A stretch of 47,306 nucleotides of DNA, from assembly GCA_017451265.1 (NCBI GenBank), contig JAFSPU010000014.1, positions 1 through 47,306 on the forward strand, read 5' to 3'. Below are positions 29,470 to 46,945 of this stretch, piece by piece. This stretch comes from Clostridiales bacterium (GTDB lineage Bacteria > Bacillota > Clostridia > Saccharofermentanales > Saccharofermentanaceae). How positions within the stretch are numbered: the stretch's first letter is position 1; every line of letters begins with the position of its first letter. The notes under the pieces were generated by a model, which had not been told where the DNA came from, ran no database searches, and saw only the letters and a program-made list of their open reading frames with translations. A program made the position numbers and the translations under genes.

Positions 29470-30255
29470 TCATATACTTTCAGCTATTTCGAGAAGCCTC
29501 GTCAGTCTGTGATTCATACCGGACTTGCCGATAGGCGGATTCATCATCTTTCCGAGCTCCGCAATGGAGGCTCCGGGGTTATTCTGGTGCACGACAGCCG
29601 CCTCATACAGGCTTCTGGGGAGTTTCTCCGCTTCCGGGGACGCAAGCAGCTTCCCTATGAGCTCTCCCCTTCTTGCCGCGGCCTCCGCCTGCCTTCCGGT
29701 ATTGCCCGAGTCGCAGTTAACTGCGCGGTTTATGTCGGAGTACACCTCGCGCTCTATTCTTATGCTCTCGAAATTAAGTCTCGCAGTGCTGGCGCCTATA
29801 AGGCCCAGGATGTCGGAGACGGCATCGCCGTTGCTTATGTAGATGGAGTGTATCTCTCCCCTTTCGGCCTCCGAATACGGTATGTCGAAGCCGGAGAGTA
29901 TTCCCGTGATGACTTCGGCAGCCTCGGGATTAACGGGCCTTAGCTCGATCCTGTAAGCCGACGTGGGCTCCGTGATATACCCGCACGCAAGGAAAAAGCC
30001 CCTTAAGAAAAGCCTGGCGCCGTTCTTGGGGTCAAGTGAGATCTTCTCCTGCGAGCCTGTAAGGACGTCCCTGCACTTCATGAGGACCTCCTCGGCATAG
30101 TCCTTAATGGGAGTTCCGGGCATGATGATGCCCGAGGCGAGGCTGCGCTTGTCCTCCGTATTCTTCACGGGGAGCGCCGCTGCTTCCGCCTTTACGAGCT
30201 TGGAGAAACTCTCTTTCTTATCCTCAGCTGTTTGTTTCGGGCTTTTTGACGTCAT
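29470..30255 (-). CDS. whiA: WhiA-type DNA-binding protein, shortened
   Basis: WhiA is a conserved regulator linked to cell division and chromosome segregation in Gram-positives, built from a LAGLIDADG homing-endonuclease-like domain and a C-terminal helix-turn-helix. Here the second endonuclease-like half (RLFLRGFFLACGYITEP) and the helix-turn-helix (LGKMMNPPIGKSGMNHRL) are clear. The first half is reduced: between the start and the RLFLRGFF region there are about 80 residues instead of about 130. Total length is 261, against about 310-315 in Bacillus. It overlaps the end of rapZ by 32 bases. yvcK, normally between rapZ and whiA, is missing. Confidence 0.88.
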   Translation of the reverse strand: MTSKSPKQTAEDKKESFSKLVKAEAAALPVKNTEDKRSLASGIIMPGTPIKDYAEEVLMKCRDVLTGSQEKISLDPKNGARLFLRGFFLACGYITEPTSAYRIELRPVNPEAAEVITGILSGFDIPYSEAERGEIHSIYISNGDAVSDILGLIGASTARLNFESIRIEREVYSDINRAVNCDSGNTGRQAEAAARRGELIGKLLASPEAEKLPRSLYEAAVVHQNNPGASIAELGKMMNPPIGKSGMNHRLTRLLEIAESI

Positions 30256-31123
30256 ATCTGGGGTCTCTGTCTATATCACGGTGCTGGACTGTTACTCTGT
30301 AACCTTCATCGGCAAGGATCTGGCCTAATCTCTCGGCGATGAATACGGATCTGTGTCTTCCGCCGGTACAGCCGATACCGATATTAAGCCTCGACTTTCC
30401 TTCTCTGATATAGAAAGGGATCATATACTTAAACATATCGCTTAACTTGTCCAGGAACTCACGGGTCTCATCGAATCCCATCAGGTATTCGGCGATGGCC
30501 TCGTCCTTACCGCTCATCATCTGAAGCTTCTCGACCCAGAAAGGATTCGGGAGGAATCTTACATCGATTACGTCATCACTGTCGGAAGACAGACCGTACA
30601 TAAAACCGAAAGACTCAACATAAATGGACATGCCTGCCGCCTCGGCTTCATCGAGAACCGTGTGCAGCTCCTTGCGAAGCGCAGAGAGCGTGGTCATGGT
30701 GGTGTCGATGATATAGTTGGCGCGGCCTCTTATTCCCTGCAGCAGCCTTCTTTCAGCCGCGATGGCATCCACGAGGCTCATCTCTGCCATAAGCGGGTGC
30801 GATCTTCTCGTCTGACGGTAACGGCTTACGAGGACATTATCGGCAGCCTCAAGCAGAACGATCCTGTACTTGCACTCCATGTCATCGAGCTTTACCATGG
30901 CAGAATCGAAGCCCGCGAGCATGCTCCTGGAGCGCACATCTACTACCAGGCACAGCTTATCAATGGCAGGAATTCCTTCCTCCTTGCCCATAAGCGACTC
31001 CACGATGCCGGGAAGAAGCACCGGGGGCAGGTTATCAATACAGAAGTAACCGTGGTCTTCAAAGTAAGCCGCTGCCTGCGACTTTCCCGCTCCGCTCATA
31101 CCTGTCAAAATGATGATATCCAT
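30224..31123 (-). CDS. rapZ: RNase adapter/nucleotide-binding protein RapZ (YvcJ)
   Basis: A P-loop protein of 299 residues. The N-terminal Walker A is GMSGAGKS (8-15), and the C-terminal domain carries GCTGGRHRSV, the family's signature. In E. coli RapZ controls glucosamine-6-phosphate synthase through small RNAs; in Bacillus YvcJ binds nucleotides and affects competence. It shares one base with the murB stop codon (TAATG). Confidence 0.95.
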   Translation of the reverse strand: MDIIILTGMSGAGKSQAAAYFEDHGYFCIDNLPPVLLPGIVESLMGKEEGIPAIDKLCLVVDVRSRSMLAGFDSAMVKLDDMECKYRIVLLEAADNVLVSRYRQTRRSHPLMAEMSLVDAIAAERRLLQGIRGRANYIIDTTMTTLSALRKELHTVLDEAEAAGMSIYVESFGFMYGLSSDSDDVIDVRFLPNPFWVEKLQMMSGKDEAIAEYLMGFDETREFLDKLSDMFKYMIPFYIREGKSRLNIGIGCTGGRHRSVFIAERLGQILADEGYRVTVQHRDIDRDPRYDVKKPETNS

Positions 31124-32034
31124 TACTTCTTACTCCCGCCTAAGAATCTTACTTCGCATTCCAGCCTTACGCCGCTGTCTTCATAGACTTTATCCTGTAT
31201 GTGTTTTATCAGTCTCTTTATGTCCTCCGAGCCTGCGGTGCCGCCGTTGTTTACGACGAAGCCTGCGTGCTTGGGGCTTACCTCGGCACCCGAATCATCA
31301 AGAGAGAAGCCCTTGAGGCCCGAGTCCTGTATAAGCTTGCCCGCAAAGTAACCCTCGGGGCGCTTGAACGTGGAACCGCATGAGGGAACCGTCAAGGGCT
31401 GGGATGCACTTCGCTTATCGCGAAGCTCCTTTACGAGCGCGTCGATCTGCTCCCTGTCACCCTTCTTAAGGCGTGCGCGCAGTCTCGTCACGATCCTGCC
31501 GTTATGTGTGAAGAAGGAAGTCCTGTAACCGAAGTCCTCCTTGCTCACCTGCATGTCTTTTACTTCGCCGTCCTCGATGTAGCGCACTTCCACCGCAATG
31601 TCAGAGATGTCACGCCCGTAGGCACCGGCATTCATGAACACCGCACCTCCGACGCTTCCCGGTATACCGCACGAGAACTCGGCGCCCTCGTATCCTGCGG
31701 CTGCGGCAGTGTTGCCGAACTTAGAAAGAAGGCAGCCCGCCTGCGCCGTTATGAAACCGTACTCATTATCCTGCGGATCATCTTCTGTTTCGATCGCCGA
31801 CATGTTGGAACCAAGCTTGATGATAAGGCCGTCGAAGCCCGCATCATCCGCGATCACATTGGAGCCGTTGCCGAGGATGAATACTTCAAGGTTTTTGTCT
31901 TCTGCGAACTTTATAAGTTCTATTATCTCCCCCTCACACGAGGGCTCGGCGAAATAGGCCGCAGGGCCGCCGGTCTTCATGGTGGTGAGGGGCTTAAGAA
32001 CTACGTCTTTTCTTATGATATCTTCTATGGGCAT
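31123..32034 (-). CDS. murB: UDP-N-acetylenolpyruvoylglucosamine reductase
   Basis: An FAD enzyme that finishes UDP-MurNAc synthesis for peptidoglycan. Visible motifs are GNGSNVIADDAGF (FAD site), CGIPGSVGGAVFMNAGAYG, the YRTSFF loop, the catalytic Ser in CGSTFKRP and the C-terminal Glu (LECEVRFLG). Length 303, normal. It begins within the hprK stop (TGATG overlap), so the two are coupled. Confidence 0.96.
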   Translation of the reverse strand: MPIEDIIRKDVVLKPLTTMKTGGPAAYFAEPSCEGEIIELIKFAEDKNLEVFILGNGSNVIADDAGFDGLIIKLGSNMSAIETEDDPQDNEYGFITAQAGCLLSKFGNTAAAAGYEGAEFSCGIPGSVGGAVFMNAGAYGRDISDIAVEVRYIEDGEVKDMQVSKEDFGYRTSFFTHNGRIVTRLRARLKKGDREQIDALVKELRDKRSASQPLTVPSCGSTFKRPEGYFAGKLIQDSGLKGFSLDDSGAEVSPKHAGFVVNNGGTAGSEDIKRLIKHIQDKVYEDSGVRLECEVRFLGGSKK

Positions 32035-32963
32035 CAGCTTAAGTTGCCTCCCGGGAATACTCGTGAAACAAGATCCTGTGCGGCATTAAAGCCCATCTTC
32101 TTAACTCTGTAGTTGATAGCCGCCGCCTCGACGATAATGGCGAGGTTACGTCCGGGTCCTACCGGAATCGTTATGGAAGGAACCTTAAGGCCTAAGATCT
32201 CCGTGGTCTCTTCATTGAGGCCCATTCTGTCGTAGGTCTTGTTCTCATCCCAAAGCTCAAGGTTAATAACGAAGTCAATCGACTCCTGAGGCTTTACGGA
32301 AGATACACCGTAGAGCTCCTTTACGTTCATGATACCGATACCGCGGATCTCGATTAAGTGCTTAATGACATCGGGCGCCTTACCCACGAGAGTCGTCTCG
32401 GAAACCTTTCTTATCTCTACCTGATCGTCAGCGATAAGTCTGTGACCTCTCTTTACGATCTCGAGCGCGGTCTCGGACTTACCTACGCCGCTCTCTCCTA
32501 AGATAAGGATACCCTCACCGTTTACCTCTACGAGTACGCCGTGCATAGACACACGCGGCGCAAGCTCCATCTTAAGGTACTTAACGAGCTCGCTCGAAAA
32601 ATCGGAAGTGGCATCCTCTGTCCTTAAGACAGGTGTCTTCGTCTCCTCTGCAGCCTCAAGTATCTCGGGCTGCACCTCATGATTACGCGTGATGATAAGC
32701 GCAGGGATATTCTTCTCGAACAAAGTGGAGACAGATCTCTTTCTGTCCTCTGAGGTGAGGTTGTTAAGGAAAGCGTGCTCCATGTTACCGACGATCTGAA
32801 GTCGGTCAGGACCGAAGTGATCGTAATAACCTGCAAGCTGCAGTCCCGGACGCGTTACATCCGCGACGGTTATTCTTCTTTCCTCGATGTCCCCGGAATC
32901 ATAGACGACTTCCAGTTCAAATCTCTCTACGATCTGCGACAGAAAAATACTTGAATAAGGCAT
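32034..32963 (-). CDS. hprK: HPr kinase/phosphorylase
   Basis: Phosphorylates Ser46 of HPr in response to ATP and fructose bisphosphate, which drives carbon catabolite control in Firmicutes. The Walker A motif GESGVGKS is at 156-163, the conserved His is His141, and the family signature GIGIMNVKELYGV is present. Length 309, normal. First gene of the hprK-murB-rapZ-whiA block; a -10-like TATAAT lies about 30 bases upstream of the ATG. Confidence 0.96.
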   Translation of the reverse strand: MPYSSIFLSQIVERFELEVVYDSGDIEERRITVADVTRPGLQLAGYYDHFGPDRLQIVGNMEHAFLNNLTSEDRKRSVSTLFEKNIPALIITRNHEVQPEILEAAEETKTPVLRTEDATSDFSSELVKYLKMELAPRVSMHGVLVEVNGEGILILGESGVGKSETALEIVKRGHRLIADDQVEIRKVSETTLVGKAPDVIKHLIEIRGIGIMNVKELYGVSSVKPQESIDFVINLELWDENKTYDRMGLNEETTEILGLKVPSITIPVGPGRNLAIIVEAAAINYRVKKMGFNAAQDLVSRVFPGGNLS

Positions 32964-35418: not shown

Positions 35419-38400
35419 TCAGAACTTAACCTCTACCTTATGTGCAGCACCGTCTGTGAAGATCGGTACCTTGCAGTCAGGAAGCTCGTTGCCGTCGCAG
35501 AAGACCTTGACGCCCTCGTTTGTACGGCGGAAGCCCTGAGGCTTTGTGATGTTAATGTCGTAAACAGCAAGACCGCTGTTTACTGTTACATTAAGCTCTG
35601 TATCGTCGTCTCTGAGCAAAGGCTCAACGATGAGTGCATCAGATGTGAACTCTACGCCGAAGCAGGAGAACAGACACAGCAGGAGCCATGTGGATGTACC
35701 GGAAAGTGTAGGTCCGATGTTCTCACCTGTGCTTGAGTTGTTGTACTGTGTGCACCACCTGGGGTTACCGCAAGAGTCGAACGGATGCTTAAGTGTTCTG
35801 TAAGGAAGGATGCAGTCGATTACCCAGTAAGCTGTCTTTGCAAGTCTTCCTGCAAGTTCTACATCGGAAACTTCCTTAGCTGCCTTGAGCATAGCTGCTG
35901 CAGCCATCATGTTAGCGTGCTTGAATACACCGCCGTTCTCACGGTCACCGGGATAATAAAGTGCAACGTCGATCCTTGGAGCGATCTTCGGATAGTCAAC
36001 TGTGGAGCAGAGTCTGAAGCCGTAAGGTGACTTGATGTACTTGTCCATGGAGTCGAGCATTGTGGAGATCTGCTGCTCGTCTGCACATCCGGAGAGTACG
36101 GACCAGGAGAATGCATTGAGGAAGTATGTTCCGGGAGCATCCTCAACCTGGAGCTTATCGCCTGCAGCACCGAGGTACTCGAGCTCGGGCTTATCCTTTC
36201 TGTTGAACAGAACTCTTGCGAAGAAGTCGTTCTTCCAGGCGTTCTCTCTCATTGTCTTCTTAACTGCCTCGGAAAGCTCACCGAGCTCAGCAGCATAAGC
36301 TGCATCGCCTGTCTTCTCGAACATGCCCTTAGCAGCATCGATGGCAACCTTAAGCAGGAAGCCATTCATTGTAGACTCGGAGAACTCAGACTCGAAGGGA
36401 ACCTCGCCGTAAGCCTTGCCCTTAGCTGCGAGCTGCTCCTTGTAAGCCTCAAGCTTCTTGCCTGCAGGCAGGAAGTCAGGGTCTACTCTCAAGCAGTCAT
36501 TCCAGTCAGCTCTGTCGATGAGCGGGATGCCGTGTGCACCGACGGAGATCTTGGCGCTGTATGTGATGATAGCCTTGATCGTCTCGAGGATAGTTCTCTT
36601 CTTGCCCTCGCCCTTCTTAACAGCAGCCATGGCAATCTCGGGTGTCTCATAAGTCTGAGCCATTACTACCTCTTCCTTAAGGAAGTCGTAGTCGCCTGTC
36701 AAAGATACATATCTGTCGAGAGCCTGGAGCAGCCACAGTCCGTCATCAGACCACTGACCGGGCTCCTTGCCGTACCAGTAGAAGTTATGGTTTGTGTAAC
36801 CGGCCTCGAATACGTTACTTGTCCACTCACGAAGGAGCTTCTTAACGAACTCCTGCTGTCCCATACCTGCGAAGTAGTACATGGAAGCGAAGATGTCCTG
36901 AATCTCTCTGAAACCGATCTCACGGTAACCCTTCTGTGTCCAGTCGAGTGATCTACTTACGAATGTCTGATAGAAGACCTGGAAAGGAAGGTTGTTGTTT
37001 ACATAAGACTCGAAGTTCTTATCGTCGTGAGAGATCTTCATGTACTTAGCGTAGTCATGTGTGAAGTTAACTACCTTGTCGTACATAGCGGGAAGTGCTT
37101 TCTCGTCGCTGTAGTAAGCGATGAGGTTAGCGATCTCCTCGTTAGTTGTCTTATCTACAACATAGTTGTCGTTAACAACATCGGAAGAAAGACATGTGAA
37201 GTTGTCTGCCCTTACGGAACCGCCAGCCTTTACTGTAAATGCAGTAGCGAGTGCGAAGAATCCGGGGCCCTTTCTGGACTGTTTGTCGGAAAGGAATGAG
37301 ATGAACTCAGGGTTAGCGAGTGTGCCGCTTCCTACGAAGTCAGCATAACGTGCGCAGTACTGAGTAGGCAGCTTAGCCTTGCCGTCCTCGTGAACGATGA
37401 GTGTGTTCCAGCGGATGTTGCCCTTGGCATTCTTAGGGTTAGGATCATTACAGATAGCGAGGATATTCTCATCGCCGTCATAGTAAACCTCAGACTCACA
37501 TACAACTGTGGTGAATATAACATCCTCACTCAGAGCGTGAACCTGCTTTGTTCCGAACATACCTGTATAAACGATACGGAGGTCTCTGTCCTTGGAACCT
37601 GTGTTCTCAATGTTGATCATCTGAGCTTCTGTAGCAAGAGGCATGTTGTTCTGTGCAGGAAGGATGAAGATAGTTCTTGTTACCTTAAGTCCGTCCTCGA
37701 GCTCGTAGGAGATGATAGTTCTGTTCTGTGAATGTGTTGTTGTAACCTTCTTGAGGCCCTCAGCCTTAGCTGTGCCGGACCAGAAGATCTGCTTGCCGTT
37801 CTCTGTAAGGTAGAACTGTCTGTTTGCCGGGAAGCCGTTCTCCTCAGGCAGGTAGTCCCATCTTGTAGCAAGAACCTGTGTGTCTGCGTGAGATCTGAAA
37901 GATCCGCCGCCCAATGCATCTACAGCACTCTTAGGTGTGCTCTGCAAAGGTCTGTCAAAACCGATACGGTTACCGATAAGCATGTTGGTGTAATAGTGAG
38001 GTCCCGGTGCAGGTGTGGAAGGATCGAAGCTGAGCTCACCGTTGCCGTCAAGCTCGCCGCCCCATGTTCTCGCACCATCGATAGCAGCCTTGATAGCAGC
38101 CTTCTGCTCTGAGCTGATCGCTTCAGGTGTGCTGCTGCCTTCCTTGTAGAGGTCTCCATCAGCTGTAAACAGAACGCTTACGCCCTGCTCGAAAAGCTTT
38201 GTAAGAATCTCGTTGATCTCATTTAACTGAAGCACTACTGATACAACAGGTGATTCAAATTCAAGTCCGCTGACTGCCGCTACTACGGGAGTCTTTGTAA
38301 AACCGATATACTGGGCACTTACAGCACCGTCAATTAAATTGCTGAATTTTCCCATTGCGATAGACTTTGCAGATATCTGCTTGTCTCTGGCTTTAATGCC

Positions 38401-38421
38401 GTTCACGATAGTGTTTGCCAT
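35419..38421 (-). CDS. cdp: cellodextrin phosphorylase (GH94)
   Basis: Cleaves one glucose from the non-reducing end of cellotriose and longer cellodextrins with phosphate, giving glucose 1-phosphate, in the cytoplasm. At 1000 residues it fits the long GH94 class (about 980-1010), and it matches from memory the C. thermocellum enzyme over its whole length, for example LIGNRIGFDRPLQSTPKS near residue 150, GYREIGFREIQDIFASMYYF in the middle and GENIGPTLSGT near the end. The catalytic acid motif is DRADWNDC. A GGAGG site lies nine bases before the ATG. It has its own extended -10 promoter and a dyad upstream, so it can be expressed apart from cbp. Laminaribiose or beta-1,3-glucan phosphorylase is less likely. 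Confidence 0.93.
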   Translation of the reverse strand: MANTIVNGIKARDKQISAKSIAMGKFSNLIDGAVSAQYIGFTKTPVVAAVSGLEFESPVVSVVLQLNEINEILTKLFEQGVSVLFTADGDLYKEGSSTPEAISSEQKAAIKAAIDGARTWGGELDGNGELSFDPSTPAPGPHYYTNMLIGNRIGFDRPLQSTPKSAVDALGGGSFRSHADTQVLATRWDYLPEENGFPANRQFYLTENGKQIFWSGTAKAEGLKKVTTTHSQNRTIISYELEDGLKVTRTIFILPAQNNMPLATEAQMINIENTGSKDRDLRIVYTGMFGTKQVHALSEDVIFTTVVCESEVYYDGDENILAICNDPNPKNAKGNIRWNTLIVHEDGKAKLPTQYCARYADFVGSGTLANPEFISFLSDKQSRKGPGFFALATAFTVKAGGSVRADNFTCLSSDVVNDNYVVDKTTNEEIANLIAYYSDEKALPAMYDKVVNFTHDYAKYMKISHDDKNFESYVNNNLPFQVFYQTFVSRSLDWTQKGYREIGFREIQDIFASMYYFAGMGQQEFVKKLLREWTSNVFEAGYTNHNFYWYGKEPGQWSDDGLWLLQALDRYVSLTGDYDFLKEEVVMAQTYETPEIAMAAVKKGEGKKRTILETIKAIITYSAKISVGAHGIPLIDRADWNDCLRVDPDFLPAGKKLEAYKEQLAAKGKAYGEVPFESEFSESTMNGFLLKVAIDAAKGMFEKTGDAAYAAELGELSEAVKKTMRENAWKNDFFARVLFNRKDKPELEYLGAAGDKLQVEDAPGTYFLNAFSWSVLSGCADEQQISTMLDSMDKYIKSPYGFRLCSTVDYPKIAPRIDVALYYPGDRENGGVFKHANMMAAAAMLKAAKEVSDVELAGRLAKTAYWVIDCILPYRTLKHPFDSCGNPRWCTQYNNSSTGENIGPTLSGTSTWLLLCLFSCFGVEFTSDALIVEPLLRDDDTELNVTVNSGLAVYDINITKPQGFRRTNEGVKVFCDGNELPDCKVPIFTDGAAHKVEVKF

Positions 38422-38537: not shown

Positions 38538-41027
38538 TCAGCCGAGTACTACCTCAACCTTGTGAGTCTTGCCGTCGCCTGCAACGGGAACGATGCAGCC
38601 TTCTACAGCCTGACCATCAACTGTGAGGCTCTTAACACCCTTGTTTACGTGGTCGGGATTCTTGATTTCGATCTCGTATGTGTCGCCTCTGAACTGACGT
38701 GAAGCCTTGAAACCGTCCCATGCAGCAGGGATGGAAGGATCTACTCTCAGGCCGTCGAACTCAGGCTTAACACCGAGGATGTACTGGGAGATAGCAACCA
38801 TGTTCCAAGCAGCTGTACCTGTGAGCCAGGAGTTCTTGCCCTGACCGAAGTTCTTAGCATCCTTACCGCCGATCATCTGACCGTAAACGTAAGGCTCTGT
38901 CTTGTGGATATCGGATGTCTCTTCTGTGAAAGCAGGAGCGATCTTGGAATAGTACTCGAATGCCTTCTCTCCTCTTCCTGCATAAGCCTCAGCACAGATG
39001 ATCCATGCGTTGTTATGTGTGAAGATACCGGCGTTCTCCTTGTATCCGCCCGGATATGTGGAAATCTCACCGTACTGGATATAGTACTTTGTGAATGCAG
39101 GATTGTTCAGAACGAGACCGAACTCGCAGTTCAGATACTTATCGATGGAGTTCAATGTCTTGATGTCAGCTCCGACATCCTTACCGATCTCAGACATAAC
39201 AGCGAAGCCCTGAGGCTCGATGAAGATCTTACCTTCCTCACACTCGTGGGAACCCATCTTCTCGCCGTTAGCATCGTAAGCTCTCAAGAACCACTCGCCG
39301 TCGAAAGCGGACTCCATTACGTTCTTCTTCATCTTGTCGATCTCTGCCTGAGCCTTGGCAGCTTCCTCTGTCTTACCGAGGTGCTCGAGGATACCGACAT
39401 AAGCAGGACCTGTGTATGTGAAGAGTGCTGCAACGAATACAGACTCAGCAATCTTGGAGTAACCGCCCTCAGCCTTGAACTTGGGGTTGGTGTATGTCTG
39501 GAATGATTCACCGGGTGTGTCGGAGAAGCATGACAGGTTAATACAGTCGTTCCAGTCAGCACGCATTGCGAGAGGCAGACCGTGAGGTCCGAGGTTATCA
39601 ACGATGTGATAGAAGGAAACCTTGAGGTGATCGAGCATCGGCTTAGCAAGAGACTCGTCGTTATCATAAGGAACCATCTCATCGAGGATTGTCCAGTCGC
39701 CTGTCTCCTTGATGTAAGCAGCTACGGAAAGAATCATCCACAGCGGGTCATCGGAGAAGTCGCCGCCGATATCGGAGTTACCTTTCTTAGTAAGAGGCTG
39801 ATACTGGTGATAGCATCCGCCGTCAGGCATCTGTGTGGAAGCGATGTCGATGATTCTCTCTCTTGCACGGTCAGGGATCTGATGAACGAATCCGAGAACG
39901 TCCTGGTTAGAATCTCTGAAGCCCATACCACGGCCGATACCGGACTCGAAGTAAGAAGCGGAACGTGAAAGGTTGAATGTAACCATGCACTGATACTGAT
40001 TCCAGATGTTGACCATACGGTTAACCTTGTCATCAGGTGTATCAACCTTGAAGATGCTCAAGAGATGATCCCATGTAGCACGGAGCTCCTCGAGGCCTGC
40101 AGCAACCTTCTCAGGTGTGTTGTACTTCTCGATCATGGCATCAGCCTTCTCTCTGTTGAGAACCCATGCCTCTCTTGTGAGCAGACCCTCGGGCTTTGTG
40201 GAAGCGAACTTCTTGTCCTGAGGATTCTCAGCATAACCGAGGATGTAGATCAAAGTCTTTGTCTCACCGGGAGCGAGAGTGATCTTCTTGTAGTGGGAAG
40301 CGACAGGAGACCAGCCGTCAGCGAAGGAATTGGAAGCCTTGCCTGCCTTAACTGTCTCAGGGTTGTCGAAGCCGTTGTAGATGCTTCCGAGGAATGCATC
40401 ACGGTCTGTATCATAACCATCAATTGTGTCATTTACTGTGTAGAAAGCGTAGTGATTACGTCTGTCTCTGTACTCTGTTACGTGATAGATTGTGGAACCT
40501 AAGATCTCAACACGACCAGTGGAGAAGTTTCTCTGGAAGTTTGTGCAGTCATCCTGTGCATCCCACAAGCACCACTCAGCGAGTGAGAAGATGGAGAAAT
40601 CCTTAGCTGTAGAACCCTCGTTGGTGAGGACTACCTGCTGGACTTCACCGTCGTAGTTCTGAGGAACGAAGAATGTAACCTCAGCCTTAAGGTCGTTCTT
40701 CTTACCTGTGATGATCGTATAACCCATACCGTGACGGCACTCATATGCATCGAGCTCTGTCTTTACAGGAGACCATCCCGGATTCCATACTGTACCGTTG
40801 TCATTGATATAGAAGTAACGTCCGCCCATATCGAGAGGTACGTTGTTGTAGCGATAACGTGTGATTCTTCTAAGTCTTGCATCCATGTAGAAGCTGTAAC
40901 CGCCGGCAGTGTTGGAAATGAGGGAGAAGAAGCCCTGATTGCCGAGGTAGTTGATCCAAGGATAAGGTGTCTTGGGAGTATTGATGACGTACTCTTTGCG
41001 TGCGTCATCGAAATGACCGAATTTCAT
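38538..41027 (-). CDS. cbp: cellobiose phosphorylase (GH94)
   Basis: Splits cellobiose with phosphate into glucose 1-phosphate and glucose in the cytoplasm. The 829-residue sequence follows the C. thermocellum enzyme nearly block by block: [10 protein letters not shown] at 20-29, [11 protein letters not shown] at 54-64, [20 protein letters not shown] near 356-375 and the catalytic RADWNDC at 489-495. A CATCATG start with a GGAGG site lies at 41027. It has its own upstream region with a weak -10 and a cre-like site, and ends before an inverted repeat that precedes cdp. The enzyme works together with cdp: cdp shortens cellodextrins and cbp handles the final disaccharide. Confidence 0.96.
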
Positions 41028-41138: not shown

Positions 41139-41170
41139 AAAAAGGCTGCCCCGGGATACGGGACAGCCTT
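41139..41170 (-). terminator. terminator of the lipoprotein gene at 41193
   Basis: On the minus strand AAGGCTG-CCCG pairs with CGGG-CAGCCTT (one mismatch) and is followed by five T at 41139-41143. It separates the lipoprotein from cbp. Confidence 0.88.
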
Positions 41171-41192: not shown

Positions 41193-42023
41193 TTACTGAA
41201 CAGTACATGTAGATCTGTAGAACTCTACTCCGTCTGCATCATAAAGAACGAATGTATATGATCCTGAAGGGAATGAGCCGCCGAGGTTTGTATCTTCGGC
41301 ATAGCAGTAATTCTCGAGGAATCCGTAGTCATTGTAATCACGGCTTGTATAGATAATGTTGCCGTCCTTATAAACTACGAAGTAGTATTCCATATCATCA
41401 TAATAGTGAGCATCTACAACATACAGATCAAGGTCAAGATAAGATCTTCCGCTGCCGTAAACTGTGCCGTCGGCACCCCACCAGTTCTCTGAATTGATCC
41501 AGCCCTCATACATGGACTCGAATCCGAAATCAATGTCATAAAGCTCTTCGAAGAAATCCTCTACGAAATCATCACAGTTATCGATGACCCAGTTGTCTCT
41601 CTTATTAACGAACTCAAGTGTGATAGAGATCTCGATGGTATCTGCCTCATCGAGGAGATCTGCGAACTCATCAACATCTTCAGGATCCTCATCAAGAGCT
41701 GCATCATAGTCAGGCAGTGTGATAGTAAACTCTACTGTACCGCCATCCTTCTTAATGCTTGCCTTACCAGCTTCTACAGTTGCTCTTTCAATGATAGCAT
41801 CAACGGGATCATAATCAGATGCGAAAGGTGCGAGTGCTGCAAGAGCATCATCCTCATCCTCGCAAAGCTCAGCCATATCCTCGATTTCTCTTTCAAAAGC
41901 TGCCTCAATAAACTCTGTTCCGATCTCCTTGCACTCCTTAGCCGCAGCAGAACAGCCTGTCATGCTCAAAGCCATAGAAGCAACAAGAACAGAAGCAATA
42001 AGAGTCTTGCTTGCCTTCTTCAT
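41193..42023 (-). CDS. secreted lipoprotein of unknown function
   Basis: About 276 residues. The signal peptide ends in the lipobox LSMTGC. The mature protein is strongly acidic, with a helical first half (about 25-190) and a beta-rich C-terminal part with many Tyr and Asp (DAHYYDDMEYYFVVYKDG, SGSYTFVLYDADG) that looks like a small Ig- or carbohydrate-binding-like fold. I recognise no family. The ATG at 42023 has an AGGAGGAG site and begins the signal peptide; the longer frame runs into the upstream terminator. It is flanked by terminators on both sides and has a TATAAT at 42054-42059, so it is transcribed alone within the cellodextrin locus. Confidence 0.8.
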   Translation of the reverse strand: MKKASKTLIASVLVASMALSMTGCSAAAKECKEIGTEFIEAAFEREIEDMAELCEDEDDALAALAPFASDYDPVDAIIERATVEAGKASIKKDGGTVEFTITLPDYDAALDEDPEDVDEFADLLDEADTIEISITLEFVNKRDNWVIDNCDDFVEDFFEELYDIDFGFESMYEGWINSENWWGADGTVYGSGRSYLDLDLYVVDAHYYDDMEYYFVVYKDGNIIYTSRDYNDYGFLENYCYAEDTNLGGSFPSGSYTFVLYDADGVEFYRSTCTVQ

Positions 42024-42062
42024 AGTAACTCCTCCTGTTTTTTTGATATATACATTATATAA

Positions 42063-42090
42063 AAAGAGCCGTGCTTTTGCACGGCTCTTT
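42063..42090 (-). terminator. terminator of the ABC transporter operon
   Basis: On the minus strand a perfect twelve-base stem (AAAGAGCCGTGC / GCACGGCTCTTT) with loop AAAA leads into TTTTT. It lies 32 bases beyond the stop codon of the second permease. Confidence 0.93.
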
Positions 42091-42122
42091 CTGTTACCCA
42101 TAAAGGTTGATCGCGGTTCGGA

Positions 42123-43001
42123 TTACTCCTTAACACCACCGGCAGAAACACCCTGAATGATGTATCTCTGCAGGAAAGCGTATGCGATGATGATCGGGAA
42201 TACGGATGCGGACAGACCGATGTAAATAGCACCATAGTCTGTGTAACGGTCACCGTAGAGCAACGATACCATCAAAGGGAGAGTCTTCAGGTCCTGCTTT
42301 GTAAGGAGGATCGAAGGAGCGAAGAAGTTGTTCCAAGATCCCAAGAAGGAGAAGATACCCTGTGTAGCAAGAGCCGGTACCATGATCGGGAGGCAAACTC
42401 TATTGAATGTGTAGAACTCGCCTGCGCCATCGATTCTAGCAGCTTCGATGATTTCCTTAGAAAGCGATGTATCGAGATACTGCTTAATGAAGAAAACAGT
42501 TGCAGGAGCTGCGATTGCAGGAAGGATCAAAGGCCATCTTGTTCCGAGCAATCCCATGGAGTTCATGAGTCTGTAGAAACCTGTGATGTTAACGGCTGTA
42601 GGAACCATCATAACACCAACGATGATTGTGAAGATCAACTTTCTGCCCTTGAAGTCATAGACACTGAGGCCGTATGCCGTCAAAGCTGAGAAGTAAACTG
42701 TCAATGCTGTTGCAGAAACCGTGATGATCAGTGAGTTCTTGAAACCAAGAGCGAAGCTGAATGTTGAACGGTTTGCCAGGTACTCCCAGTTAGCCTTTAC
42801 CTGCTCAACTACATGTCCTACGTTAGGCCAGAGCTTAATTCCGGTCTGGATTGAGAATGTATCCCAAGTAGCGTTCATGAACATGTACCAGAAAGGAATA
42901 ATGGCAAGAATCGCAAAGAAGATAACTACAACATATACAAGTGCACTGTATGCCGCAATAGAAGCTGACTTACTGCGTAACTTTACATCATTGCTGCTCA
43001 T
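42123..43001 (-). CDS. carbohydrate ABC transporter permease (MalG type)
   Basis: A 292-residue membrane protein with six helices and the cytoplasmic EAA loop that contacts the ATPase (EAARIDGAGEFYTFNRVCLPIMVP area, about 185-208). It is the second of two permeases of a CUT1-type sugar importer. Its ATG overlaps the stop codon of the first permease by one base (TAATG). Together with the binding protein and two cellodextrin-degrading enzymes nearby, cello-oligosaccharides are the likely cargo. Confidence 0.93.
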   Translation of the reverse strand: MSSNDVKLRSKSASIAAYSALVYVVVIFFAILAIIPFWYMFMNATWDTFSIQTGIKLWPNVGHVVEQVKANWEYLANRSTFSFALGFKNSLIITVSATALTVYFSALTAYGLSVYDFKGRKLIFTIIVGVMMVPTAVNITGFYRLMNSMGLLGTRWPLILPAIAAPATVFFIKQYLDTSLSKEIIEAARIDGAGEFYTFNRVCLPIMVPALATQGIFSFLGSWNNFFAPSILLTKQDLKTLPLMVSLLYGDRYTDYGAIYIGLSASVFPIIIAYAFLQRYIIQGVSAGGVKE

Positions 43002-45433
43002 TAGTTGCCACCTGCCTTTCTTGCGAGTTTCTTAGCTTTTGCAGCCGCCGCTGCATCCTTATCTCTCATCATGTAGAAGATGAGGACAGAGAGAATCGTC
43101 GTTACGATAAACAAGAGGATTGATACTGCAGATGCAATACCGACCTGCTTAATGCTTGACTTACCGAAAGCGAGATTGTTGACATACATAAGAACTGTCT
43201 GTGTGCACTTGATGTAAGAACCGTTGAACGAAACGAGTGAAGGATACTGGTTGATGTTGAACGGAATATCGTACATCTGGAGACCACCGATCATGGATGT
43301 AACGAATGTGTACAAGAGGATCGGACGGAGCAAAGGCATTGTGATCTTTGTGTATGTCTGGAAGGAGTTAGCACCATCAAGCTGAGCGGACTCATAGAGA
43401 GACTCAGAGATGGAAGTAATACCGGCGATCAATACGATCATTGTATTACCATACCACATCCAGAAGTTGATGAAGCAGACGATGAATCTTGTATACCAGG
43501 GGTTAACGAAGAAGTTAACTCTCTCATGGCCTACAGCATCAAGCAACATCTGTACGGCTGATGTAGCCTCACCTGTTGAGTACGAGAACAGTCTTCTGAA
43601 GAAGATAGCGATCGTAGCAGCAGTAATAACGTTAGGCAAATACATCAAAGCCTTCATGAGGCTCAATCCCTTGAGCTTGAGCTTTGTATCTGTGAACCAA
43701 GCGGACAAGAGCAGAGCGAGGAGGATCTGAGGAATAAATCCGATGATCCACATAACAGCAGTTGTATAGAAAGCACCAATTACTGTATTGAATCTGTACT
43801 TGTTACCGAAGATATCACCGAAGTTCTTGAAACCTACGAAGAGGTAATCTCTTGTAGCGTCAGCCTTCTCAAGGAGACCGGCAGGTCTGTTGACCTTAGA
43901 CTCATTGTCGATGATCTGAACGTTTACAGCAGAGAGAGCCTCGTATGCATCCTGGATAGCTTCTTCGTCACCGGAAGCTACTGCAGCATCATAAGCTGCC
44001 TGTGCATCAGGAAGAGCAGCACGTGCTTCGTCGAGCTTAGCCTGAGCCTTCTCCTGATTCTTTACCTTTCTAGCTGCATCGAGCTCCTCGTACTTATCCA
44101 TTGTAAGGACAGTGTCGAGACCGATGAGAGCCTTGAAAGAAAGATACTTGCTCATGTCGAATTCGCCATTGAATGTGATGTAAGAGTCTACATCGATACC
44201 AGCATCGATGAGCTTCTTTCTACCGGCGTTCATGGCTCCATCGAGATAGTTGTTAAGGCAAACGATCTGGAGAGATGAGGAAGCCTTAACGGGATCTGAC
44301 TGATAATTGCTGTCAATGTACTGACGCATAGCAGCCAGAATGTTGTTTGTAGCATTGGAAGACTGAACGAGTGTGTCGCCTTCCTGAACGAGCTGAACCT
44401 GATTAACGATGAGACCCATAGCATCGAGAGCCTGGAGGTCAGCATAGAGCTGCTCCTCACTGTCGTGAAGTTCCTTATCACCGCTAATATAGTTAGCAAA
44501 TTCTGAATAAGATGTGAGAGCAGGAACGGAAGTTGACCAAGCATTTGCATTGAGATATGTGACCAAGTCGTTCATGAAAGGAACTGTAATCGCTGTGATT
44601 GCAGTCTCGCCCTCAGCAGAAGTATAAACAGCGTTAGGTGCGTTGAGGTTAGCGCAGATGTAATAGAATACATCAGAGTCAACCGAAACATCCTCAGCTG
44701 CAAAGAAATCATAGAGTGAATCTACACCCGCATAATTAGCGAGGTAGTTAACGAGGAGTGTCTGACCTTCGTCAAACTCACCTGCCTGAAGTGTCTCAAG
44801 GAAAGAAGCATACTGAGAGCTTGTAAGGATATCCTCAGCTGTAAGCGTATCAGTCTCTGTCTCGTCTTCACTTGTAACTACTTCTGCAGCAGTCATAGCT
44901 GCTGTGTTTACTTTACTTAAGCTGTTGATAACGGTAAGTCCGAGATCAACATAGTTTGCGCTCCATGTGTTGAGCTCTTCCATAACGGAAGCATCGGATG
45001 CGATATAAGAAATATCGTTAGTGTCGATAACCTGCTGGATCTTGCCTCTTGTAGCCTCTGTCAGATCACCATTGTTTACGAGTGCCTGAAGGCCTTCAGG
45101 ATCAATGGGGTTATATCTGTCAGCAACTTCCTGTGCGGAGAAGAAGCTCTTGATCTTTGCATAAGCAGCAGGGTCAATACCTGTACTGCCCTTCAGATCA
45201 TCATAGAAATCTGTAAGGTTAAGGTATTTGTCGTAATAAACCTCTCTGTGATTAAAACCCCAGAACTTAGCGTTTGTGTTCTGCATGAATGTTCCGGAAT
45301 ACCAGAATGTGGTAAGCAACGGATACAAGCTGAACAAGCAGTAAACGATAACGAACGGGGCAATAAAGAGGTAACCAAACTTGGTATAGCTCATACCTTT
45401 ACGTCTGGAAGGTGTATTAGTACCTCTTGCCAT
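43001..45433 (-). CDS. carbohydrate ABC transporter permease (MalF type) with a giant extracellular insertion
   Basis: The permease core is clear: a first helix (about residues 20-44), the FVGFKNFGDIF motif that normally follows it closely (about 531-541), five further helices and the EAA loop (ESAQLDGANSFQTYTKITMP). Between the first helix and that motif lie about 470 extra residues, so the protein has 810 residues where the family usually has about 290-320. The insert is soluble, acidic and mostly helical, with a Lys/Ala/Glu coiled-coil stretch (about 445-505). By topology it should lie outside the cell. I chose the ATG at 45433, eight bases after a GGAGAG site; a GTG at 45442 is too close to that site. 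Confidence 0.9.
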   Translation of the reverse strand: MARGTNTPSRRKGMSYTKFGYLFIAPFVIVYCLFSLYPLLTTFWYSGTFMQNTNAKFWGFNHREVYYDKYLNLTDFYDDLKGSTGIDPAAYAKIKSFFSAQEVADRYNPIDPEGLQALVNNGDLTEATRGKIQQVIDTNDISYIASDASVMEELNTWSANYVDLGLTVINSLSKVNTAAMTAAEVVTSEDETETDTLTAEDILTSSQYASFLETLQAGEFDEGQTLLVNYLANYAGVDSLYDFFAAEDVSVDSDVFYYICANLNAPNAVYTSAEGETAITAITVPFMNDLVTYLNANAWSTSVPALTSYSEFANYISGDKELHDSEEQLYADLQALDAMGLIVNQVQLVQEGDTLVQSSNATNNILAAMRQYIDSNYQSDPVKASSSLQIVCLNNYLDGAMNAGRKKLIDAGIDVDSYITFNGEFDMSKYLSFKALIGLDTVLTMDKYEELDAARKVKNQEKAQAKLDEARAALPDAQAAYDAAVASGDEEAIQDAYEALSAVNVQIIDNESKVNRPAGLLEKADATRDYLFVGFKNFGDIFGNKYRFNTVIGAFYTTAVMWIIGFIPQILLALLLSAWFTDTKLKLKGLSLMKALMYLPNVITAATIAIFFRRLFSYSTGEATSAVQMLLDAVGHERVNFFVNPWYTRFIVCFINFWMWYGNTMIVLIAGITSISESLYESAQLDGANSFQTYTKITMPLLRPILLYTFVTSMIGGLQMYDIPFNINQYPSLVSFNGSYIKCTQTVLMYVNNLAFGKSSIKQVGIASAVSILLFIVTTILSVLIFYMMRDKDAAAAAKAKKLARKAGGN

Positions 45434-45486
45434 CTTTGTCACTCTCCAAAATTATTTTGCCCAAAAGTTTCTTTTAGTTAAGGAAA

Positions 45487-45515
45487 TGCGGGGCAGGGTG
45501 TTGCCCTGCCCCGCA
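45487..45515 (-). repeat. very strong stem-loop between binding-protein and permease genes
   Basis: A perfect twelve-base GC-rich stem (TGCGGGGCAGGG / CCCTGCCCCGCA) with a five-base loop, 36 bases after the binding-protein stop. Only three T follow, so termination would be partial. Such structures commonly protect the binding-protein message from 3' decay and keep it more abundant than the permeases. Confidence 0.9.
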
Positions 45516-45550: not shown

Positions 45551-46945
45551 TTAAACAATACCAGCGTCTTCAACTGCTGCAACGAATGCGGACTCAGCCT
45601 CAGCTACAGTAGCGATGTCGCCCTCGATGTAGGACTGAACTACTGCGTTGAACTGATCGTTGATAGCACCGTCATTGATTGTGATGATGGAGTTATCGAT
45701 CTGTGTAGCAGCGTCGAGGAGAACCGGGATAGGGTTCTGGCCGCCGAGCCACTCAAGTCCGAATGCATCGTCGTGTCCAAGTGTATCCATGATGGAGATG
45801 TTGTTAACGAACTCACCGTTGTTAGCCATATCCTGGAGAGAAGCTGTATCGATGCAGATGTCTCTCATGATCTGAGCAACAGAAGCCTTAGAGTTGCAGT
45901 ACTTGGAAGCCATCATCCATGTACCACCCCAGTAAGAATCAGCGGGAGCGCCTACGATACCCCAATCACCAGATGTGGGATTAGGAACGTCGTTAACGGA
46001 AGGATCAAGAGCCATAGAGAACTTAGCAAGCCACATAGGACCCCAGTAAGAAAGAACTGTACCGTTGGACATATCAGCTGTCCAAGCATCCTGCCACTGA
46101 GCTGTCTCGTGTGTGAGGTTCTCATCGTGGAGTGTCTTTGCAAGGTCGAAGTACTCTTCCATGCAAGGATCGATTGTGAGCTCGCCATCTACGATCCAAG
46201 CCTGTGAACGGGAACCGAGGAAAGCACGGAAGATATCTGCAGGAGCAGAAATTGCAACGTACTCACCAGACTCAGCAACTGTTCTAGCTGTCTCGATGAA
46301 AGCATCCCAGCTCTCGAAGTAAGGAGCAACGTCTTCAGGCTCGGAAACGCCAAGTGTTGCCTGTGCTACGCTTCTGTTGTAGAAGACGCCGCAAGGGCAA
46401 GCCTGCCATGCGAGACCCTTAATAACGTTCTCATCGTCTGTAGCGAACTGGAGAGTGTAGTTGTACATCTCAGAAAGCTCGCTATAAGCGATACCAAGAT
46501 CATTGATAGGCAGTGTGTTGTCAGACTGCAAGTACTTTCTAGCATAGTCTGCATCGCATGCAAACATGTCAGGAGCATCCTCACCAGAAGCGAGAACGTT
46601 GTCAAGTACCTGCTGAATTGTGTCAGAGGACTGCTGCTCATAACGAACAGTGATGTCAGAGTATGTCTCGATGAGGTTCTTAACTTCCTCATTGAAGCCA
46701 TAAACAACAACTTCATCATCCTCATCAGCTACATCAGCAATAGCGAGCTCGTTGTAAGCAGAAGCCTCAACAACCTGAGTGATTGTCTCAGCTGTCTCTG
46801 TCTCACCAGCGCCCTGTGTCTCAGCAGCTACTGTTGTCTCACCAGCGCCTGCAGCTGTAGTCTCAGCTGTATCGTCGGAACAAGCAGCAACACCAAGAAC
46901 CATTGCCAATGACAACATCAAAGCAATAATCTTCTTTGTCTTCAT
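45551..46945 (-). CDS. extracellular solute-binding lipoprotein of the cellodextrin ABC importer
   Basis: A 464-residue family-1 binding protein. The signal peptide ends in the lipobox VAACSDD, then a Thr/Ala/Glu-rich flexible linker of about 45 residues spaces the binding domain from the membrane. The domain shows EDAPDMFACDADYARKYL, GVFYNRSVAQATLGV and a Trp-rich sugar site (SYWGPMWLAKF, DSYWGGTWMMA). It is first in the operon with an AGGAGG site and precedes both permeases. Substrate is inferred from the adjacent GH94 phosphorylases. Confidence 0.92.
   Translation of the reverse strand: MKTKKIIALMLSLAMVLGVAACSDDTAETTAAGAGETTVAAETQGAGETETAETITQVVEASAYNELAIADVADEDDEVVVYGFNEEVKNLIETYSDITVRYEQQSSDTIQQVLDNVLASGEDAPDMFACDADYARKYLQSDNTLPINDLGIAYSELSEMYNYTLQFATDDENVIKGLAWQACPCGVFYNRSVAQATLGVSEPEDVAPYFESWDAFIETARTVAESGEYVAISAPADIFRAFLGSRSQAWIVDGELTIDPCMEEYFDLAKTLHDENLTHETAQWQDAWTADMSNGTVLSYWGPMWLAKFSMALDPSVNDVPNPTSGDWGIVGAPADSYWGGTWMMASKYCNSKASVAQIMRDICIDTASLQDMANNGEFVNNISIMDTLGHDDAFGLEWLGGQNPIPVLLDAATQIDNSIITINDGAINDQFNAVVQSYIEGDIATVAEAESAFVAAVEDAGIV

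Follow-up and report, generated by a model that had tools for sequence, protein, structure and literature searches.

Positions 1 to 47,306 of contig JAFSPU010000014.1 from a Clostridiales bacterium (assembly GCA_017451265.1; this whole stretch of 47,306 nucleotides is called the window below) encode a sugar permease of the ATP-binding cassette (ABC) type with about 480 residues inserted between its first transmembrane (TM) helix, at about residues 20-50, and the FVGFKNF motif of its core. The insert is predicted to be a folded extracellular domain, and it takes the place of the P2 domain of Escherichia coli MalF. The leading explanation, to which in our judgement even chances apply, is that it also works as P2, contacting the sugar-binding lipoprotein and positioning it beside the pore. 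The elements of the gene are listed here, with residue numbers, as throughout the text, counted in the 813-residue frame that begins at GTG.

43001..45433, reverse strand: MalF-type sugar permease gene, ATG at 45433
45293..45385, reverse strand: TM helix 1, residues 20-50 (hydropathy peak 2.24)
43841..45277, reverse strand: putative extracellular insert, residues 56-534
45215..45265, reverse strand: conserved membrane-proximal motif FWGF...YLNL, residues 60-76 (invariant columns, conservation blocks)
43889..44101, reverse strand: predicted coiled-coil hairpin, residues 448-490 and 493-518 (AlphaFold2 models)
43058..43840, reverse strand: permease core, residues 535-795, with five further TM helices and the PF00528 match

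The open frame 43001-45442 (reverse strand) has 813 codons counted from GTG. The ATG at 45433, 8 nucleotides behind GGAGAG, is the better start and probably yields a protein of 810 residues; given this better placement, the coordinates of the earlier note, written from the letters of this DNA, are right. Judged by its sequence, the product is a CUT1-type ABC sugar permease, the MalF-type subunit. PF00528 (BPD_transp_1), its sole Pfam match at E values up to 1, covers residues 576-787 with 33.5 bits against a cut-off of 26.4. The best NCBIfam matches are MalF (76.4 bits), UgpA (55.3 bits) and GlcT, each under its cut-off, and these MalF-type models are nearer than the MalG model (27.9 bits). 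MalF chains also head the sequence and structure comparisons. Of the six hydrophobic regions in the hydropathy profile, one precedes the insert, five follow it and none falls between residues 60 and 535; the highest 19-residue Kyte-Doolittle mean within the insert is 1.03, versus 2.24 for TM helix 1.

A K/R-rich N-terminus, a single preceding TM helix and a net charge of -48 strongly suggest that the insert faces outside. This location gains support from a sister permease of the insert-free type found in the same genus (L092 in G023, L129 in G114, L130 in G104), which bears in the same loop between TM helices 1 and 2 a very acidic insert of about 165-220 residues, unrelated to the insert of about 480. 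Part of the acidic insert is similar to part of two proteins, L131 and L132, whose N-termini are lipoprotein-like. The earlier note had described an intact core and an outward-facing insert of about 470 residues, devoid of TM stretches and placed between helix 1 and FVGFKNFG; apart from the slightly greater length, these descriptions agree with our results.

A whole-protein scan of genome contigs recovered 28 loci, 27 of them with the insert and one, L053, an insert-free relative. The stretch corresponding to residues 56-534 spans 472-583 residues in 28 insert-bearing rows and 18 in L053. The distance from the YP motif of TM helix 1 to the core is 22-37 residues in 35 insert-free loci, a few of which are the same gene fetched twice (7 further loci were not measurable). 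AlphaFold2 modelled the full-length permease with a mean predicted local distance difference test score (pLDDT) of 71.6 and a predicted template modelling score (pTM) of 0.46, most of the insert scoring 76-95 and the membrane core poorly, while the insert alone reached a mean pLDDT of 91.6 and a pTM of 0.68. The models depict a confidently folded domain, mostly a helical globule of 21 helices and two small beta hairpins, followed by an antiparallel hairpin with arms of 43 and 26 residues, which corresponds to the coiled coil announced in the earlier note. The largest length changes among 27 rows, up to +91 residues, fall at the hairpin tip, as if the length of a coiled-coil spacer were free to vary. 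In the longest inserts (L049, 583 residues; L052, 570; L043, 540) the extra residues likewise lie largely at or near this tip. Twenty-one columns of the insert are invariant, aromatic for the most part, and the best-conserved part is FWGF...YLNL, next to TM helix 1.

Searches with the insert alone, a check proposed in the earlier note, turned up no curated family or solved fold that matches convincingly: scans of the 28 rows left it uncovered by any Pfam or NCBIfam family, and Foldseek with its model found no solved-structure match (best E 0.58). The VIA-align matches of the model fall mostly on the hairpin, and the fold matches listed do not include MalF.

The position of the insert was established by comparison with MalF. 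The five-helix core aligns significantly with that protein, from permease residue 538 and MalF residue 257 onwards, and the NCBIfam MalF alignment pairs residues 534-789 with MalF 263-512. P2 is reported as a domain of about 180 residues between helices 3 and 4 of enteric MalF (PMC2246101). Because the core aligns from MalF residue 257 on and P2 lies between helices 3 and 4, the insert is, according to the alignment, in the P2 position, directly before the same five-helix core, and the earlier placing of P2 in a different loop was not borne out. E. coli MalF, of the MalFGK2 importer, thus combines a homologous core with a large extracytoplasmic domain directly before it, but its domain is the smaller one, and its eight TM helices include three ahead of P2, whereas the clostridial permease has one before the insert and five after. 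The score of 76.4 bits also lies under the NCBIfam cut-off of 392 for the enteric MalF equivalog (PRK10999).

The docking proposal involves the neighbouring genes, which make up an operon with the permease gene.

45551..46945, reverse strand: sugar-binding protein with a lipoprotein-type N-terminus (SBP_bac_1; PDB match)
42123..43001, reverse strand: partner permease (MalG/UgpE/GlcU-like), without a large insert
38538..41027, reverse strand: GH94 cellobiose phosphorylase (1293 bits to 3qde)
35419..38421, reverse strand: GH94 cellodextrin phosphorylase (948 bits to 8h6h)

Since the neighbours are a binding lipoprotein and cellobiose and cellodextrin phosphorylases, the operon context strongly suggests cellobiose or cellodextrin as the substrate. 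The best PDB match of the binding protein, annotated as putative cellobiose-binding, is weak (E 4.1e-9) and, with the two phosphorylases, it supports the cellodextrin context of the earlier note. The binding-protein gene precedes the permease gene in 26 of the 27 insert loci, and the 27th has 85 bases upstream. A cellobiose phosphorylase gene, whole or partial, occurs in 18 of the 27, whose flanks differ in length; in L036 and L050 it is missing from the roughly 5 kb of downstream sequence. The proteins of the operon that were scanned include no recognisable ATPase, and a MalK-type gene located elsewhere in the genome may serve the importer. A clostridial cellobiose and cellodextrin importer coupled to intracellular phosphorolysis is known by description from Ruminiclostridium cellulolyticum (CuaABC with the cellobiose phosphorylase CbpA), and a giant loop is not mentioned in the abstract of that report (PMC10384115).

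According to the docking proposal, the first extracellular loop, which forms P2 in E. coli MalF, would have grown into a folded domain about 480 residues long. Standing next to the opening of the pore, this domain would contact the binding lipoprotein and keep it in place or turn it so that the sugar can be delivered. The lipoprotein-bound sugar would then be passed to the MalF/MalG pore, a MalK-type ATPase with its gene elsewhere would power transport, and the imported sugar would be split inside by the two GH94 phosphorylases. P2 reportedly contacts MalE, as the titles of cited works have it. We only infer docking of the binding protein by the insert, and its position favours such a role. 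With the core held fixed, the partial matrix correlation of distances over 25 loci is 0.47 between insert and binding protein and 0.15 between insert and MalG-type partner. The linkers of the binding proteins are 55-75 residues long in the 27 insert loci versus 11-61 in 21 insert-free loci (4 further insert-free loci were not measurable).

Several observations weigh against docking. The correlation between core and binding protein given the insert is 0.56 over the same 25 loci, therefore the value of 0.47 is not specific. The three acidic-insert loci have binding proteins with ordinary linkers of 46-47 residues. TM helix 1 does not align significantly with MalF (negative bit scores), and some VIA rows pair the coiled coil, rather than this helix, with the N-terminal helices of MalF. 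No sequence relation of the insert to P2 was detected, although a very remote homology is possible. Finally, the loop is short in L088, a permease from another family that is linked to GH94; hence the substrate and enzyme context does not require an insert. The insert-free paralogs of the same genus, about 39-47% identical in the core, also have a short loop between TM helix 1 and the core, with the same order of binding protein, MalF-type and MalG-type genes in the loci opened. Insert-free relatives adjoin GH3 enzymes, not GH94, in all four loci tested (L084, L086 and L089 within the genus, L053 outside it).

It is unlikely, but deserves consideration, that the insert faces glycans or the cell surface instead, either capturing long cellodextrins or anchoring or spacing the importer at the wall or beside another surface protein. 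The mostly aromatic invariant columns, the cellodextrin phosphorylase, which suggests longer chains, and the spacer-like hairpin with a tip varying by up to 91 residues speak for such a role. The invariant aromatics may simply be buried, though, and no carbohydrate-binding or wall-binding family matched any of the 28 rows in the Pfam and NCBIfam scans. The same scans matched no sensor family, which argues against a regulatory insert, one that would control the opening of the pore or report on available sugar and would not itself be the principal site of docking. We regard that role as improbable, even though the conserved membrane-proximal motif adjoins TM helix 1 and the title of a cited work links P2 to signalling to MalK.

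How the insert is distributed and how it evolves bears on two further explanations. An insert profile matched 32 of the 188 genomes sampled from the order, 30 belonging to the window's genus and 2 to another genus of the same family. Of 391 genomes from the class it matched 5, each from the window's genus, and of 398 from the phylum it matched 1, the window's own. These samples overlap and many of the genomes are incomplete; among them, the matches point to an insert family confined to one bacterial family. The 27 insert loci include Saccharofermentans, Mageeibacillus and Ruminococcaceae bacterium YRB3002, and many come from rumen, omasum and other gut sites. Genome G116 has two full-length insert matches (C40, C81), and L038 and L042, both long-insert permeases, belong to the same isolate, RGIG9768. 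When 71 cores were placed in a tree, a single branch with a support of 100/100 separated the 29 rows bearing the insert from the others, and the simplest reading is one gain of the insert.

The ratio of nonsynonymous to synonymous substitutions (dN/dS, Nei-Gojobori) was computed for 16 chosen close pairs. It ranges over 0.07-0.28 in the insert, which by this measure is under purifying selection, and over 0.01-0.19 in the core. This ratio, together with the maintenance of the insert at 472-583 residues in all 28 rows, makes it doubtful that a loop prone to insertions simply tolerates the insert as cargo, with a folding or stability role and little part in transport. The cargo explanation would nevertheless fit the unrelated insert in the same loop of the sister permease, the faster divergence of the insert (mean p-distance 0.61 versus 0.27 for the core) and its not being found in most related genomes of the order. 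An assembly or frameshift artefact fusing two genes has practically no likelihood: apart from the incomplete genome assembly of the window (69.5% complete) nothing favours it, the same fused frame without internal stops occurs on contigs of many assemblies, and the occurrence in 32 genomes of the order and the low dN/dS rule out the sequencing error envisaged in the earlier note.

The suggestion of that note that the transporter architecture is undescribed goes too far. In Thermotogales, MalG1/2 were reported in 2008 to have a hydrophilic region of about 500 residues and of unknown function between TM helices 1 and 2 (PMC2246101), therefore the general architecture is known. Likened by description, the two are of the same kind and of similar size, and the Thermotogales region is likewise without known relatives; it differs in belonging to the MalG subunit, in another phylum, and to operons reported for maltose/trehalose or mannooligosaccharides, while the clostridial insert is in the MalF-type subunit. 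Among the results listed by our literature searches, no description of the clostridial insert family turned up. What is new is thus the insert family itself, and the variant is probably a lineage-specific version of a known device.

The same source describes P2 domains also in Thermotogales MalF1/2, and smaller ones in some others, and their apparent loss from a largely Gram-positive clade (PMC2246101), which lends interest to a natural and conserved giant extracellular permease domain in Clostridia. Should the insert dock the binding protein, the case would be one of convergence at a single loop, and would provide a cellodextrin importer complex amenable to study. A broader, tentative idea, which we consider less likely than not to hold, is that CUT1 importers in general use the outer loop between TM helices 1 and 2 as a port for docking. 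Unrelated domains (P2, the Thermotogales MalG region, the domain of about 480 residues and the acidic insert) would each have been captured there separately and have come by convergence to hold the binding protein. If so, the insert of Clostridia would have a new fold and serve, within a MalF-type subunit, as a docking module of unusual size that keeps the binding protein, itself anchored by lipid, stationed at the pore. The unrelated insert of the sister permease makes the notion of an insertion hot spot of sugar importers testable.

The remaining observations concern the surroundings of the permease gene.

45487..45515, reverse strand: strong stem-loop between the binding-protein and permease genes, internal-terminator-like (minimum free energy z -6.55)

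This stem-loop is a G+C-rich stem of 12 bp with a poor U tract. In cellulolytic Clostridia, similar internal terminators have been reported to follow the genes of binding proteins (PMC9045158). The stem-loop probably allows an excess of binding protein to be produced. A second terminator-like stem-loop (41142-41170, reverse strand) lies between the cellobiose phosphorylase gene and a gene for a small lipoprotein-like protein; the terminator scan of the region gave 14 sites versus 9.0 (standard deviation 4.0) in shuffles. The lipoprotein-like protein (41193-42101, reverse strand), encoded between the MalG-type permease and the phosphorylase, has no significant Pfam family, and relatives of it occur in 6 of the 27 insert loci (L026, L027, L029, L030, L032 and L047), all close relatives of the window's locus. 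Beyond the operon, the genes at 30224-32963 (reverse strand) resemble by eye what we take to be HPr kinase, MurB and RapZ, and in L043 relatives of these genes come after the cellobiose phosphorylase gene.
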